64,000 bases of DNA, from the NCBI GenBank assembly GCA_035532555.1, contig DATKQS010000024.1, positions 75,225 to 139,224 of the forward strand, read 5' to 3'. This document shows positions 55,474 to 61,298 of the stretch, piece after piece (within the stretch, counting starts at the first letter, position 1; each line of letters begins with the position of its first letter). The DNA is from Thermoplasmata archaeon (lineage in GTDB: Archaea > Thermoplasmatota > Thermoplasmata > Lutacidiplasmatales > UBA184). Made by a program: the position numbers and the translations under genes. The notes under the pieces were generated by a model. The model saw nothing but the letters and a program-made list of their open reading frames with translations, was not told the origin of the DNA and did no database searches.

Positions 55474-57483
55474 TCAAGCCCCCTTCGAGGACGCGGCGAG
55501 CAGGCGCGTGGCGACCTCGACCACGTGCTCGACCGTGAGGCCTAGTTCCTTCTGCAGGATGGGGCCGGGCGCGGACGCGCCGAACCGATCCACCCCGATC
55601 GATGCTCCATGCTCCCCGACGTATCGAGTCCAGCCGAGGGTCACTCCGGCTTCGATCGAGATCTTGGGAACTCCGGGAGGAAGGACCGACTCGCGGTAGG
55701 AGCGGGGCTGTTCGTCGTAGAGGCGCCACGACGGCAGGGAGACCACACGAACCGGCACCCCAGTGCCGGCGATCCGCTGTTGAACGGCCAGCGCGAGTGA
55801 CACCTCCGACCCGGTCGCGATGAGCACGAGCCTCGGAGGAGCGGACGCCGCCTCCGAGAGAATGTACCCGCCGCGGGGCACGCCCTCCGCGATGGGATAC
55901 TTACCGGCATCGAGGATCGGGAGTTTCTGGCGGCTGAACACAAGGGCCGTAGGACCCGGCCGCTCGATAGCGACTCGCCACGCAGCGATCGTCTCGTTGG
56001 CATCGGCCGGACGGATGACGTTGAGGCCGGGGATCGCGCGCAGGCTCAGCAGCTGCTCGACCGGCTGGTGAGTGGGGCCGTCCTCCCCCATTCCGATGCT
56101 GTCGTGCGTGAACACGAGGATCACGTGCGTCTGTTGGAGCGCCGCGAGCCGGATGGCGCCCCGCGCGTAGTCGGAGAAGATGAGGAACGTCCCGCCGTAC
56201 GGGAGGAGCCCTCCGTGCAGCGCCATGCCGTTGAGCGCGCCGACCATCGCGTGCTCTCGAACCCCGAAGTGGAAGTTGCGTCCCTTCGCCTCCACGGAGG
56301 AGTAGTCCGGAGACCCCGGCAGGAGCGTCTTCGTCGAGGGGGAGAGATCGGCCGCTCCGCCGACGAGCGCCGGGAGAGTCGGCGCGAGGGCGTCCAGCGC
56401 CCTCTGGGAGGCGTCCCGCGTCGCCATGGGCCCGTCGGCGGGAGCGAAGGTCGAGAGGGTCGAGCTCCATCGGGGAGGAAGTGTCCCGGTGATCTGTCCA
56501 TCGAACGCGGCGGCCTTCACGGGGTACGCGATCCGGAACCTCTCCCGGAGGGTCTCCCACTCCTTCTGCCATGTCGCTCCACGGGCAACGGCCTCGCCGA
56601 AGTGCATGCGGGCCACAACCGGAACCAGGAAAGTAGGTTCGAGCGGCCAGTCCAGCTTCTCCTTCGTCGCCCGGAGGTTGACCGGCCCCAGTGCCTCTCC
56701 GTGCGCCTCGCGAGTGTCCTGAACCGGACTGCCGTAGCCGATGTGGGTGCGCACGCAGATGAGGGAGGGGTGCGCCGTTTCTGCCTGCGCGGCACGGATC
56801 GCGGCCTCGATCGCGGGGAGATCGTTCCCGTTGGGGACCCTCTGGACGTGCCAGCCGTACGCGACGAACCGTGCGGCGACGTCCTCCGTGAACGCCCACT
56901 CCGTCGGCCCCTCGAGAGAGATGTGATTGTCGTCGTAGAGATAGATCAGTTTGCCGAGACCGAGCGTTCCGGCGAGCGAAGCGGCCTCGGAGGCGATCCC
57001 CTCCATCAGGTCTCCGTCGGAGACGATCGCGTAGGTGTAGTGGTCCACGAGCGGGAAGCCTTCCTCGTTGAAGGTGGCGGAGAGATGCCGCTCCGCGATT
57101 GCCATCCCCACGCCCATCGCGAATCCCTGTCCCAAGGGGCCGGTCGTGGCCTCCACGCCCGGAGTGAGTCCGTACTCGGGGTGCCCGGGGGTCCGGCTCC
57201 CCCACTGCCGGAACCGCTGGAGCTCCTCGATGGGCAGGTCGTACCCCGTCACGTGGAGGAGCGAGTACAGCAGAGCGGAACCGTGTCCTGCCGACAGCAC
57301 GAAGCGGTCCCGGTTGCACCAGTGCGGGTCTCGAGGGTTGTGACGGAGGAACCGATCCCAGAGCACGTAGGCCATCGGCGCCGCGCCGAGCGGCAGGCCG
57401 GGATGGCCGGACTTCGCTTTCTCGATCGAGTCGACGGAGAGGAATCGGAGGGTGTTGATGCACGTCGAATCCATATCGGCCAT
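55474..57483 (-). CDS. tkt: Transketolase (full-length, bacterial type)
   Basis: This 669-aa single-chain transketolase contrasts with the split N/C subunits common in archaea. Thiamine diphosphate motif: [18 protein letters not shown], then [10 protein letters not shown]. Substrate loops: [20 protein letters not shown] and [20 protein letters not shown]. The middle [15 protein letters not shown] carries the catalytic Glu. It is the first gene of the operon. The TATA-like CTTTTAGA near 57613-57620 implies a 5' leader of about 100 nt, unusual for this genome. Confidence 0.95.
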
Positions 57484-57758
57484 GTGGTTCGCCTCGGATC
57501 GACGGGAGCGCTGGGGAGTCGTCTCGATGCGGTCGGGGAGCGTGCGCCCCGCTCCTCGGTCGATGGACGACTCGCCTTCGCAACCGTGTCCAGCGGGCCG
57601 CAAAGCTTGCTGGTCTAAAAGCGAACGGTGCGTCGGGACGCTCCAGCCGCCGGGTTTCGTCCCCGGAGGGATCGCGGAACCAACCGAAACGAGCGGCGGC
57701 GCTACCGTGTCGGTCCCTTCGCTCTCCGCATCGCTCCGGGACGTTCTAGGCAACTGTC

Positions 57759-57887
57759 ATGAATCCTCTCGGCCTTCCCGGGGGGATGTCCGCCGAGATT
57801 GCTTGTGCGTGCTGCTCGTGCTCGGATTGCTGCCGGTGCTGTGCCTGTTGCTCCGTGGAGCAGGCCTGCTGCCCAACCTGCCCTTGA
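57759..57887 (+). CDS. Cysteine-rich metallothionein-like peptide
   Basis: This 42-aa frame has 13 cysteines, all between residues 16 and 41, arranged as CxCC, CxCxxCC, CCxCC and CCxxC (CACCSCSDCCRCCACC, then CCPTC). Apart from Met-Asn-Pro-Leu-Gly at the start it is almost all Cys, Ala, Ser and Pro, with no aromatic residues, the composition of metallothioneins that bind Cu(I), Zn or Cd as thiolate clusters. ATG 57759 or 57786 can start it. It ends 22 bp before a methyltransferase gene and 1.2 kb from a copper ATPase. No strong TATA box was seen, so expression is unproven. Confidence 0.5.
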   Translation: MNPLGLPGGMSAEIACACCSCSDCCRCCACCSVEQACCPTCP

Positions 57888-57909: not shown

Positions 57910-58794
57910 ATGGTTTCTCGACGCCGGCATTGGGACTCCATCTACCGGACCAAAGGCGAGGACGAGCTCAGCTGGCACCAGGATGAACCGACCGCTTCCC
58001 TTCGTCTGCTACGAGGGGTAGCGAACCGTCGCAGTCGAATCGTCGACATCGGAGGCGGAACCTCGCCCTTGGCAGGCCGACTGTCCGAGCATGGTTTCCA
58101 CCAGGTCACGGTCGTCGACATCGCCGACGCGGCGGTCCAACTGGGTCCCAAGCGTTCGGAGACCGGCGAACCGAACGTTCGTTGGATCCGTGCCGACGTC
58201 ACCCGCGTGGACCGGCTGGCTCGGTTTGACGTCTGGCACGACCGGGCGTTCTTCCACTTCCTCACCGACGCCAAGGATCGGAGAGCCTACGTGCGGCTGG
58301 CCCGCCGGAGCGTACCCGTGGGGGGCCACGTCATCCTCGCCGCCTTTGCTCTGGATGGGCCGGAGACCTGCAGCGGCCTCGACGTCGTTCGGTACGATGG
58401 GAGGAAGCTCGAGTCGGAGTTCGCGAGAGGCTTCCGACTCCTTCGGGAGCGTCGGGAGATCCATCGGACCCCGTGGGGGGCCCGCCAGCCTTTCACGTAC
58501 GTCGTGTTCCGACGGGTTCGAGTGGGCGAAGCAGGCGCCCGGGCCCGGAGTCGATCGCCTAGAGCACGCCCCAGGTCGCATTCACCCAGACCGTCACCAT
58601 ACCGGAGCCCGCGCCCGCGAACCCCGCGCCACACTGGTACGTCCCGCCCCACGACCAGAACGAGTAGGAGTCGGTCCCGTCCATCATCGAGTGGTCGAAC
58701 ATCATCCCGCCCGATCCTTCCATCCAATAGTGCATCGCTCGCACCCCCGCCCCTGGGGAAAAGTGAACCGTCACCCACCCCACCTCGGGGATAG
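57910..58794 (+). CDS. TPMT-like SAM-dependent methyltransferase
   Basis: The family domain covers about residues 1-205 of the open frame: HWDSIYRTKGEDELSWHQDE, SAM loop IVDIGGGTSPLAGRLSEHG, VTVVDIADAA, and FDVWHDRAFFHFLTDAKD, as in thiopurine/thiol methyltransferase relatives. GPETCSGLDVVRYDG is typical of the group. The frame then runs on for about 90 low-complexity Arg/Ser/Pro residues antisense to the next gene. A stop in the other frame at 58560 suggests the true end is near 58560 with a one-base shift or sequencing error. It may methylate small thiols or metalloids. Confidence 0.7.
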   Translation: MVSRRRHWDSIYRTKGEDELSWHQDEPTASLRLLRGVANRRSRIVDIGGGTSPLAGRLSEHGFHQVTVVDIADAAVQLGPKRSETGEPNVRWIRADVTRVDRLARFDVWHDRAFFHFLTDAKDRRAYVRLARRSVPVGGHVILAAFALDGPETCSGLDVVRYDGRKLESEFARGFRLLRERREIHRTPWGARQPFTYVVFRRVRVGEAGARARSRSPRARPRSHSPRPSPYRSPRPRTPRHTGTSRPTTRTSRSRSRPSSSGRTSSRPILPSNSASLAPPPLGKSEPSPTPPRG

Positions 58795-58975
58795 ATACGG
58801 CGGTCGTTGCGCCCGCCTGCGACGAGACCGTGATCGGTTTCGATGCCGAGTTGTACGGCACGATCGTCAGCGCGAGAAACGCGCCGGCGATGATCACCAC
58901 CGTCACGACCACGACGATGACTCGCCGCTGCCGGCTGGAAGCCGGCCTCCTCCCGGGTTCGGAGGATCGCACCAT
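58559..58975 (-). CDS. Membrane-anchored Met/His-rich protein, possible copper binder
   Basis: This 138-aa protein has a basic N-terminus, one membrane helix (VIVVVVTVVIIAGAFLALTI) and an exported beta domain. The segment AMHYWMEGSGGMMFDHSMMD has five Met and two His residues, a composition used for Cu(I)/Cu(II) binding outside the cell. Cys and Trp occur nearby (YQCGAG). It sits next to the CopA-type ATPase, 68 bp after its stop in reading order. The copper role is inferred from composition and position. Confidence 0.6.
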   Translation of the reverse strand: MVRSSEPGRRPASSRQRRVIVVVVTVVIIAGAFLALTIVPYNSASKPITVSSQAGATTAVSIPEVGWVTVHFSPGAGVRAMHYWMEGSGGMMFDHSMMDGTDSYSFWSWGGTYQCGAGFAGAGSGMVTVWVNATWGVL

Positions 58976-59042: not shown

Positions 59043-61115
59043 TCAATGGGCCAAAGAGACGAATCGAAGGGAAAGTGAGTTCAGTACGACCGAGGTGGAC
59101 GAGAGACCCATGGCGAGAGCCCCCGTGATGGGCAGTACGTTGTAGATGCCGAGGCCGAAGACGGGGACCAGGGCACCGGCCGCGATCGGGAGCAGAACTG
59201 CATTGTACCCGAGCGCCCACGTCAGGTTTCCCTTGACCTTCCCCACGGTCCGGCGTCCGGTGCGCAGCGCGAGGGCCACTCCTCGGAAGTCCGACCGCAC
59301 GAGGATCACCCCACCGGCTTCCTTGGCGACGTCGGTGCCGGCGCCGATCGCGATGCCGAGGTCTGCGGCCGCGAGCGCCGGTGCGTCATTGATGCCGTCG
59401 CCGACGTAGGCGACGTGCTTCCCTTGGGCTTGGTACTCCTTGATGATCGCCAACTTCTCCTGGGGGCTCACGTTGGCGTGCACCACGGCGATCCCCACCT
59501 GCTCCGCCACACGTCGCGCGGCGGCCTCGTGATCGCCGGTCACCATGATCGCGGCGATACCGTCCTGAGTCAGGGCCGAGATCGCCGCTCGGACGCCGGG
59601 AGCGACCTCGTCGGAGAAGCCGAGGATTCCCAAGGGGCGCCCCTCTTCGAGGACTACTGACCACGTCTTCCCTTCCGACTCGAGCCTGCGGGAATCCGCG
59701 ACCAAGGGGCCGAGTTCCAAACGGTCCGTCCGGGCGGCGGCACCCCGAAGGATCGAGACCGTCCTTCCATCTGTTTCGCCGCGGATCCCTCGTCCGGGTT
59801 CGGCGGTGAGCGAGCGAACCGGGGAGATGGTCGAGCCGCGCCGGGCCGCGGCGTCGCGCACCGCCTGGGCCAGCGGGTGCTCGGAGCCCTGCTCCAGGCC
59901 CGCCGCGACGCTGAGGAGGTGGGCCGGATCGACTCCCGGCATGGCCAGCATGTCGGTCAGAGAAGGTTCTCCGCGGGTCAGGGTCCCCGTCTTGTCCGTA
60001 AGGACCACGTCCGCCTGGCTCGCGCGCTCGAGGGAGTCGCGTCCCTTGAAGAGGATCCCTTCCTCGGCGGCCCTCCCGGTTCCCACGATGATCGCGGCGG
60101 GGGTCGCGATGCCGAAGGCGCAAGGGCAGGCCGTGATGACCACCGACACCAGAACGAGCAGGGATATCGTCAGGCCCACGCCGGCCAGGGCCCAGGCGAA
60201 GGACGCCAGGACCGCCAGGACCAGCACGACGGGGACGAACGTGGCGGCGATCCGGTCGGCCAGCTTCTGCAGGGGCACTCGGCTCGTCTCGGCCTCGGCC
60301 ACGAGCTGGCCGATCTGGGCCAGCAGCGTGTCCTCTCCGACCTTCGTCGCCTCTACCGTGAGGAGTCCTTCCCCGTTGATGGACCCGGCGATGATCGAAT
60401 CGCCGGGGCTCTTCTCTACCGGCAGGCTCTCCCCGGTGAGGATCGCTTCGTTGATGGCCGAATGGCCCTCTAGGATCACGCCGTCGGTCGGGACACGCGC
60501 CCCCGGGCGGACGCGGAAGCGGTCTCGGGCCTGGACCTCCGAGACCGGGACCTCCACCTCGCTTCCGTCCCGCAGAACCCTCGCCGTGCTCGGGAGCAGC
60601 TCCTGGAGCTTGCGCAGGGAGCCGCGGGCCTTCTCGCGGGTGAGATGTTCGAGGTAGTGTCCCGTCAGGATGAGGGTAACGATCAGGGCCGACGCGTCAA
60701 AGTAGTAGTTGTGAGGTAGCCCCGCCGGCGCGACCACCACCGCGGTGCTGTACGCGAAGGCGACGGTGGTTCCGACCGCGATGAGTATGTCCATGTTCCA
60801 GACGCGGTTATGGATCGCATCGTAGGTCCCGCGGTAGAAATCGAGGCCGGGGTAGAACTGGACGACCCCCGCGAGCGCGAGCGCGACCCAAGGCCATCCC
60901 GGCGGGGAGTACACGTACGATAGGACGAGAATCACCGCGGAGAGGGGCCAGGCGATCGCGAGTCGGAGCTGGAGCTGGGCGAGTTGATGCTCCGGGGCGG
61001 AGAACTCCTTTAGGCACGTCGTGGAGCAGAAGTAGTAGGTTCGACTCTCGCGCAGTAGGGTGAGCTCGGCGCTCTTCTCGTCGACGAACATCCCGCAGAT
61101 CGGGTCGGTCGCCAT
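59043..61115 (-). CDS. copA: Copper-exporting P1B-type ATPase with N-terminal YHS domain
   Basis: This 690-aa ATPase begins with a YHS/TRASH-like metal-binding domain (DPICGMFVDEKSAE and YYFCSTTCLKEF) instead of CxxC heavy-metal domains. Eight membrane helices follow. The transport-site CPC is in VITACPCAFGIATPAAI, with YN (GYNAVLLP) and MxxSS (MGLSSTSVVLNSL) of Cu(I) pumps. The phosphorylated Asp is in LTDKTGTLTRGEP, TGES is in LTGESLPVEK, and the hinge is GDGINDAPALAAADLG. It expels Cu(I) or Ag(I) using ATP. Confidence 0.95.
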   Translation of the reverse strand: MATDPICGMFVDEKSAELTLLRESRTYYFCSTTCLKEFSAPEHQLAQLQLRLAIAWPLSAVILVLSYVYSPPGWPWVALALAGVVQFYPGLDFYRGTYDAIHNRVWNMDILIAVGTTVAFAYSTAVVVAPAGLPHNYYFDASALIVTLILTGHYLEHLTREKARGSLRKLQELLPSTARVLRDGSEVEVPVSEVQARDRFRVRPGARVPTDGVILEGHSAINEAILTGESLPVEKSPGDSIIAGSINGEGLLTVEATKVGEDTLLAQIGQLVAEAETSRVPLQKLADRIAATFVPVVLVLAVLASFAWALAGVGLTISLLVLVSVVITACPCAFGIATPAAIIVGTGRAAEEGILFKGRDSLERASQADVVLTDKTGTLTRGEPSLTDMLAMPGVDPAHLLSVAAGLEQGSEHPLAQAVRDAAARRGSTISPVRSLTAEPGRGIRGETDGRTVSILRGAAARTDRLELGPLVADSRRLESEGKTWSVVLEEGRPLGILGFSDEVAPGVRAAISALTQDGIAAIMVTGDHEAAARRVAEQVGIAVVHANVSPQEKLAIIKEYQAQGKHVAYVGDGINDAPALAAADLGIAIGAGTDVAKEAGGVILVRSDFRGVALALRTGRRTVGKVKGNLTWALGYNAVLLPIAAGALVPVFGLGIYNVLPITGALAMGLSSTSVVLNSLSLRFVSLAH

Positions 61116-61157: not shown

Positions 61158-61298
61158 CTACGCGCTGGGGTGGGTGCGCTCGTACGTCTTGCGGCAGCCC
61201 TCGCTGCAGAAGTAGATCGTCTCGCCGCCGTACGTCCCCTTCGCCGGGGCGCGGGCCGGGTCGACCATCATTCCGCAGACCGGGTCACGGAACTGCAT
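61158..61298 (-). CDS. Stand-alone YHS-domain protein
   Basis: This 46-aa protein begins MQFRDPVCGMMVDPARAPAK and continues ETIYFCSEGCRKTYERTHPS. The Cys positions (CGM and FCSEGC) match the metal-binding YHS domain, the same type as at the N-terminus of the adjacent ATPase. It is 42 bp upstream of the ATPase on the same strand, so probably co-transcribed, and could act as a copper carrier for it. Confidence 0.8.
   Translation of the reverse strand: MQFRDPVCGMMVDPARAPAKGTYGGETIYFCSEGCRKTYERTHPSA

Follow-up and report, generated by a model that had tools for sequence, protein, structure and literature searches.

Thirteen-cysteine peptides in Thermoplasmata, a candidate metallothionein-like family new for Archaea

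The cysteine-rich gene and its locus

On the plus strand at 57759-57887 of the 64,000-nucleotide stretch of Thermoplasmata DNA analysed here (the window) lies an open frame of 42 residues, MNPLGLPGGMSAEIACACCSCSDCCRCCACCSVEQACCPTCP, with 13 cysteines and no aromatic residues. The open frame is present as the first-pass annotation had described it. The locus has the following features:

55474..57492, minus strand: transketolase, the divergent upstream neighbour (Pfam Transketolase_N, E 6e-136)
57744..57749, plus strand: possible TATA-like element ttctag, beginning at -42 from ATG 57786; tentative
57759..57785, plus strand: upstream extension (nine codons) of the frame as first read; probably a non-coding 5' leader
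57786..57887, plus strand: most likely peptide coding sequence, 33 amino acids, MSAEIACACCSCSDCCRCCACCSVEQACCPTCP, 13 cysteines; frame and cysteines conserved in relatives
57910..58563, plus strand: class I SAM-dependent methyltransferase, starting 22 nt past the peptide stop (Pfam Methyltransf_25, E 2e-10)
59043..61115, minus strand: copper-type P1B-ATPase with an N-terminal YHS domain (TIGR01511 copper-translocating ATPase, 546 bits, over cut-off)

The cysteine density of the peptide is far beyond chance. Its densest 27-residue stretch holds 13 cysteines, compared with at most 6 elsewhere in the window, and 6 was also the maximum per 27 residues in 60 windows of the same composition simulated with a first-order Markov model. 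A tandem-repeat search at the gene found no array. The whole 1.6 Mb genome carries one copy.

The start codon is most likely ATG 57786, because in the sister genome G001 the equivalent 27 bases between the two ATGs hold an in-frame TGA, and because these bases are 67% identical between the window and G001, compared with 98% over the 102 bases that begin at ATG 57786. The intergenic region is 92% and the methyltransferase gene 93% identical. The start at 57759, as annotated earlier, is thus not supported. Cysteine makes up 39% of the revised peptide (13 of 33 residues), which combines low mass with very high cysteine content as metallothioneins do. Histidine is absent from it, as are aromatics, another trait of the metallothionein class.

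TATA-like hexamers in the family cluster at -50 to -21 before the chosen starts. One is found at -45 to -22 in 16 of 54 loci, compared with 0-2 in upstream control windows. The cluster hints at promoters of the genes' own with short leaders, a reading that is tentative because the list of TATA-like patterns was chosen partly after looking at the window.

Conservation of the cysteine pattern

Searched with the single peptide, 60 relatives yielded about 20 genomes that carry it, all of one genus, after a hit in G035 and two in G044 were discounted as false. When 20 loci were aligned by homology alone, with no selection for a pattern, all 13 cysteines were invariant (20/20). The alignment of translated loci also shows A20 to be invariant, and S23 and V24 nearly so. 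A profile search found the peptide in 54 of the 106 genomes of the order, all within one family and five genera (this count discounts a G021 match at E 0.46). Among the high-quality genomes of the order, 18 of 39 carry it (G021 left out). Across 390 genomes from the whole phylum, every strong profile match falls inside the same family. The six remaining matches are weak (E 0.009-0.58); when their loci were scanned for cysteine-dense frames, one such frame emerged, which lacks the pattern. The restriction to one family holds within the phylum only, because low-complexity filters, which mask such peptides, blunted the wider searches. These were a BLAST-type search of genome contigs beyond the phylum, which found only the sister genome, and a plasmid collection search, which gave zero matches; both are weak for that reason.

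The family pattern is C-x-C-C-x-C-(x)2-3-CC-x-CC-A-CC-[S/A]-V-x3-CC-xx-C. The full 13-cysteine pattern is present in 54 copies across 53 genomes; the pattern filter demands the first ten cysteines only, and the last three are also kept in all 54. Two copies have decayed, namely the sole copy of G385, which has lost three cysteines, and the second copy of G450. About half of the family's genomes are without the gene, which is therefore dispensable. Members are 32-60 amino acids long and keep the CC, CxC and CxxC arrangement between relatives. In the family alignment the N-terminal part varies in sequence and length, and the cysteine part is invariant. Over the core of the 54 copies, histidine occurs at one position in 6 and phenylalanine once; aromatics are nearly absent.

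The first-pass annotation had proposed looking for the frame and cysteine pattern in related genomes, and had named loss of the frame beside retained flanking genes as grounds for abandoning the idea. Both are conserved across a whole archaeal family, and the sister genome keeps the frame together with the same neighbours. The frame is also kept in genomes with quite different neighbours.

Selection on the reading frame

The reading frame and the 13-cysteine spacing are under purifying selection. The pN/pS ratio is 0.30 in frame, compared with 1.40 and 1.11 in the other two frames of the same strand, and out-of-frame readings of the family loci also contain stop codons. For the non-cysteine columns alone the ratio is 0.71, and most of the constraint therefore falls on cysteine. 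The 705 cysteine codons of the 54 copies comprise 549 TGC and 156 TGT, and both codons occur at every cysteine column tabulated.

These results bear on an earlier caution, that the DNA is a TGC-rich low-complexity stretch. An open frame arising by chance in such DNA would explain the TGC and TGT codons and the locally repetitive texture, and the family pattern written as DNA does match simple TGC repeats in other collections. The matches listed from a viral collection, however, are only regular repeats and cysteine runs, with no family member recognised among them. Because selection is frame-specific, the peptide is not a TGC-repeat artefact; wobble positions change freely and there is no tandem array, and the caution can be set aside. 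A chance frame, of practically negligible probability, is refuted by the family-wide conservation, the wobble freedom and the in-frame pN/pS.

Variable gene neighbourhoods

Two neighbours in the window had been read as clues to function, a "thiol-type" methyltransferase and a copper pump. The methyltransferase is indeed adjacent and the copper P1B-ATPase is real, but neither the thiol label nor direct adjacency of the pump stood up. A thiol methyltransferase identity was rejected, since the matches are generic: TPMT scores E 0.006, below the curated cut-off, and the NCBIfam search gave no specific assignment. The pump lies about 1.2 kb from the peptide gene on the opposite strand, with another ORF between. 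A P1B-ATPase is found near the peptide gene in only three genomes, those of the window (G000), its sister and G450. Since each genome has about 2-3 E1-E2 ATPases, we estimate that chance alone would put one near the peptide gene in roughly one of the 54 genomes; the association is about chance level and was rejected as functional evidence.

Two small proteins are encoded around the ATPase. Beside it, 58559-58975 on the minus strand encodes a 138-amino-acid protein that has a single hydrophobic segment at its N-terminus and a stretch containing Met and His, HYWMEGSGGMMFDHSMMDG. This protein has no Pfam or NCBIfam family and is possibly an extracytoplasmic copper protein. Upstream of the ATPase, a stand-alone YHS/TRASH-like ORF of 46 amino acids at 61158-61298, also on the minus strand (DPVCGMMVD...YFCSEGC), resembles the N-terminal domain of the ATPase itself.

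The transketolase is outside the peptide system. G001 shares the window arrangement, with the methyltransferase 22 nt downstream and the transketolase diverging upstream, and a co-transcript of peptide and methyltransferase is possible in the window species and G001 only. A methyltransferase ORF also adjoins the peptide gene in G441. GTP cyclohydrolase II lies upstream in g28 genomes and in several g165 genomes, and MsrB lies downstream in g28; in four g28 genomes (L079-L082) GTP cyclohydrolase II, the peptide gene and MsrB stand in that arrangement on one strand. Other neighbours are an OB-fold protein gene upstream in five g1 genomes, glyoxalase genes in G015, G379 and G146, an Hsp70 gene in G009, a HesB/IscA-type Fe-S assembly gene in G457 and, nearby in three g25 genomes, a gene for a haem-oxygenase-like protein. 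Most family members have no metal genes alongside, and no metal-responsive regulator was identified adjoining the peptide gene. Because the neighbours vary across genomes, the peptide gene is an autonomous cistron and the argument from context fails, the methyltransferase and copper pump included.

The same variability weighs against two other readings of the gene. Many cysteine codons directly ahead of another gene, as in the window, could mark a cysteine-sensing leader peptide that attenuates the downstream gene. Attenuation has no need of an exact 13-cysteine spacing or of a conserved A20, S23 and V24; moreover, the downstream genes differ by genome, and no cysteine-metabolism gene was identified among them. 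The conserved spacing appears to have largely refuted this reading already, and we give it hardly any weight. A precursor of a ribosomally synthesized and post-translationally modified peptide (RiPP), whose cysteine-rich part would be the core for thiazoles, thioethers or disulfides, is quite improbable. The small size, the cysteine richness, the variable N-terminal extension and the methyltransferase found close behind in G000 and G001 and adjoining in G441 would suit it. However, the conservation pattern is reversed, with a variable N-terminal leader and an invariant cysteine part. Several members are nearly leaderless (e.g. MACACC...), the neighbours are unconserved, and genes for a cyclodehydratase, lanthionine synthetase or radical-SAM enzyme were not found among the neighbours scanned.

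Association with MerB-type lyases

One gene stands apart from this variability, that for organomercurial lyase (MerB). Members of PF03243 (MerB) occur in 17 of the 106 genomes of the order. The peptide is present in 15 of these 17, compared with 39 of the 89 others (Fisher p 0.001, uncorrected for kinship). In G014, G031, G007 and G440 a divergent MerB-like gene lies downstream of the peptide gene in the same orientation, with gaps of 3 nt in G440 and 20 nt in G031. In G465, MerB lies just upstream of the peptide gene, in tandem. The divergent proteins form a short family:

L025:2460-2897, plus strand, with further members at L027, L089 and L021: divergent short MerB-like proteins of about 130-150 amino acids that carry an additional CPxCG motif, encoded in tandem with the peptide

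Identity to the G031 protein is 40-51% in the four divergent proteins, which keep C30, D33 and C91; we take these residues to correspond to the catalytic Cys96, Asp99 and Cys159 of MerB. In PDB, MerB2 matches best (E 4e-6). A second MerB match lies elsewhere in G031 and in G007.

MerA over its curated cut-off is absent from all 17 MerB genomes. Co-occurrence of MerA with the peptide was rejected, with no enrichment (4 of 14 MerA-bearing genomes, p 0.09). Canonical MerA (14 genomes) and MerB (17) show zero overlap in the order, which is suggestive only (p 0.12).

The MerB association possibly points to a soft-metal ligand, perhaps Hg(II). Given the tandem arrangement and the co-occurrence, copper is no more plausible as the ligand than Hg(II) or some other soft metal. 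The window genome has no MerB, and mercury is therefore not the peptide's only role. A more specific proposal, doubtful at present, is that the peptide might accept the Hg(II) freed by MerB-type lyases where canonical mercuric reductase is absent. If so, mercury would be parked on a metallothionein rather than reduced to Hg(0). The proposal draws on the five tandem loci, on the peptide's presence in 15 of 17 MerB genomes and on the lack of MerA in all 17.

A probable metallothionein-like peptide

The explanation that we favour, with a probability of about 0.78, is that this autonomous small gene encodes a cytosolic, metallothionein-like peptide that would form metal clusters and buffer or detoxify metals. 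The peptide would be unfolded in the cell until metal arrives. Its 13 thiolates would then wrap several soft or borderline ions, such as Cu(I), Hg(II), Cd(II) and Zn(II), each peptide forming one multinuclear metal-thiolate cluster, and the cluster would buffer or detoxify the bound metals. We infer that the peptide binds metal, forms clusters, resides in the cytosol and serves in detoxification. The 13 thiols, the lack of a conserved histidine, the few aromatics and the lack of a predicted apo-fold fit a metallothionein that folds around its cluster. AlphaFold without metal gave no confident fold (mean pLDDT 54.5), and such a low-confidence model is as would be expected for an apo-metallothionein.

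Cysteine-only ligands would also suit a structural or redox protein of the Zn or Fe-S type, acting as a thiol buffer or as a metal chaperone with a single client rather than in storage or detoxification, and some neighbours have redox, stress or Fe-S functions (MsrB in g28, the HesB/IscA-type gene in G457). This is unlikely, since 13 cysteines in 27 residues exceed the four ligands of a zinc finger or a single Fe-S cluster, and no partner gene is conserved.

The metallothionein idea of the first-pass annotation thus survives in part. A real, family-conserved, cysteine-rich and metallothionein-like peptide stands, and the start codon and the function drawn from neighbours do not. The peptides are good candidates for a new metal-binding, metallothionein-like family in Archaea. 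In eukaryotes and in some bacteria, metallothioneins are familiar. The first-pass annotation had called them hardly known in Archaea; no described archaeal family turned up in the literature searched, and genome studies of Thermococcus gammatolerans (PMC3407056) and Haloferax mediterranei (PMC9240420) each report that no metallothionein was found. The five-genus family would offer a first concrete archaeal sequence set to express and test. If metal binding is true, the metallothionein solution would have arisen in Archaea.

Comparison with known metallothioneins

Searches of Pfam, NCBIfam and PDB with the family gave no match, and present-day family libraries miss genes of such small size. A lone Pfam match for one member is to an unrelated domain (E 0.34). 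The bacterial metallothionein family PF02069 matched none of 20 family members at E<=10, and none of 293 phylum genomes holds a PF02069 match over cut-off, while the Synechococcus elongatus control was found; the composition correction of HMMER makes these homology negatives less decisive. An hhalign comparison of the family profile with SmtA, whose query sequence may be inexact, gave nothing significant (E 0.4). The peptides thus form a family without detectable homology to known metallothionein families.

Bacterial metallothioneins (SmtA/BmtA of PF02069, those of Pseudomonas, and MymT) are likewise very small and cysteine-rich and are expected to fold around metal-thiolate clusters. In contrast to them, the archaeal peptide is dominated by cysteine doublets and has no conserved histidine ligand. 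The Pseudomonas cluster has nine cysteine ligands and one histidine, and in cyanobacteria smtA has the repressor SmtB as its partner (PMC7387436). No such gene-repressor pair was seen beside the archaeal peptide gene. Fungal CUP1-type copper metallothioneins have cysteine-only ligands, are poor in aromatics and are similar in cysteine number to the archaeal peptide, which differs from them in having no Pfam match and in its cysteine spacing. Vertebrate metallothionein (MT2 alpha domain, CCSCCPVGCAKC) has a similar texture, with CC-x-CC doublets, then a hydrophobic turn and further cysteines. A profile comparison with human MT2, whose query sequence may also be inexact, aligned 7 residues at 8% probability, and the resemblance is therefore compositional and presumably convergent.
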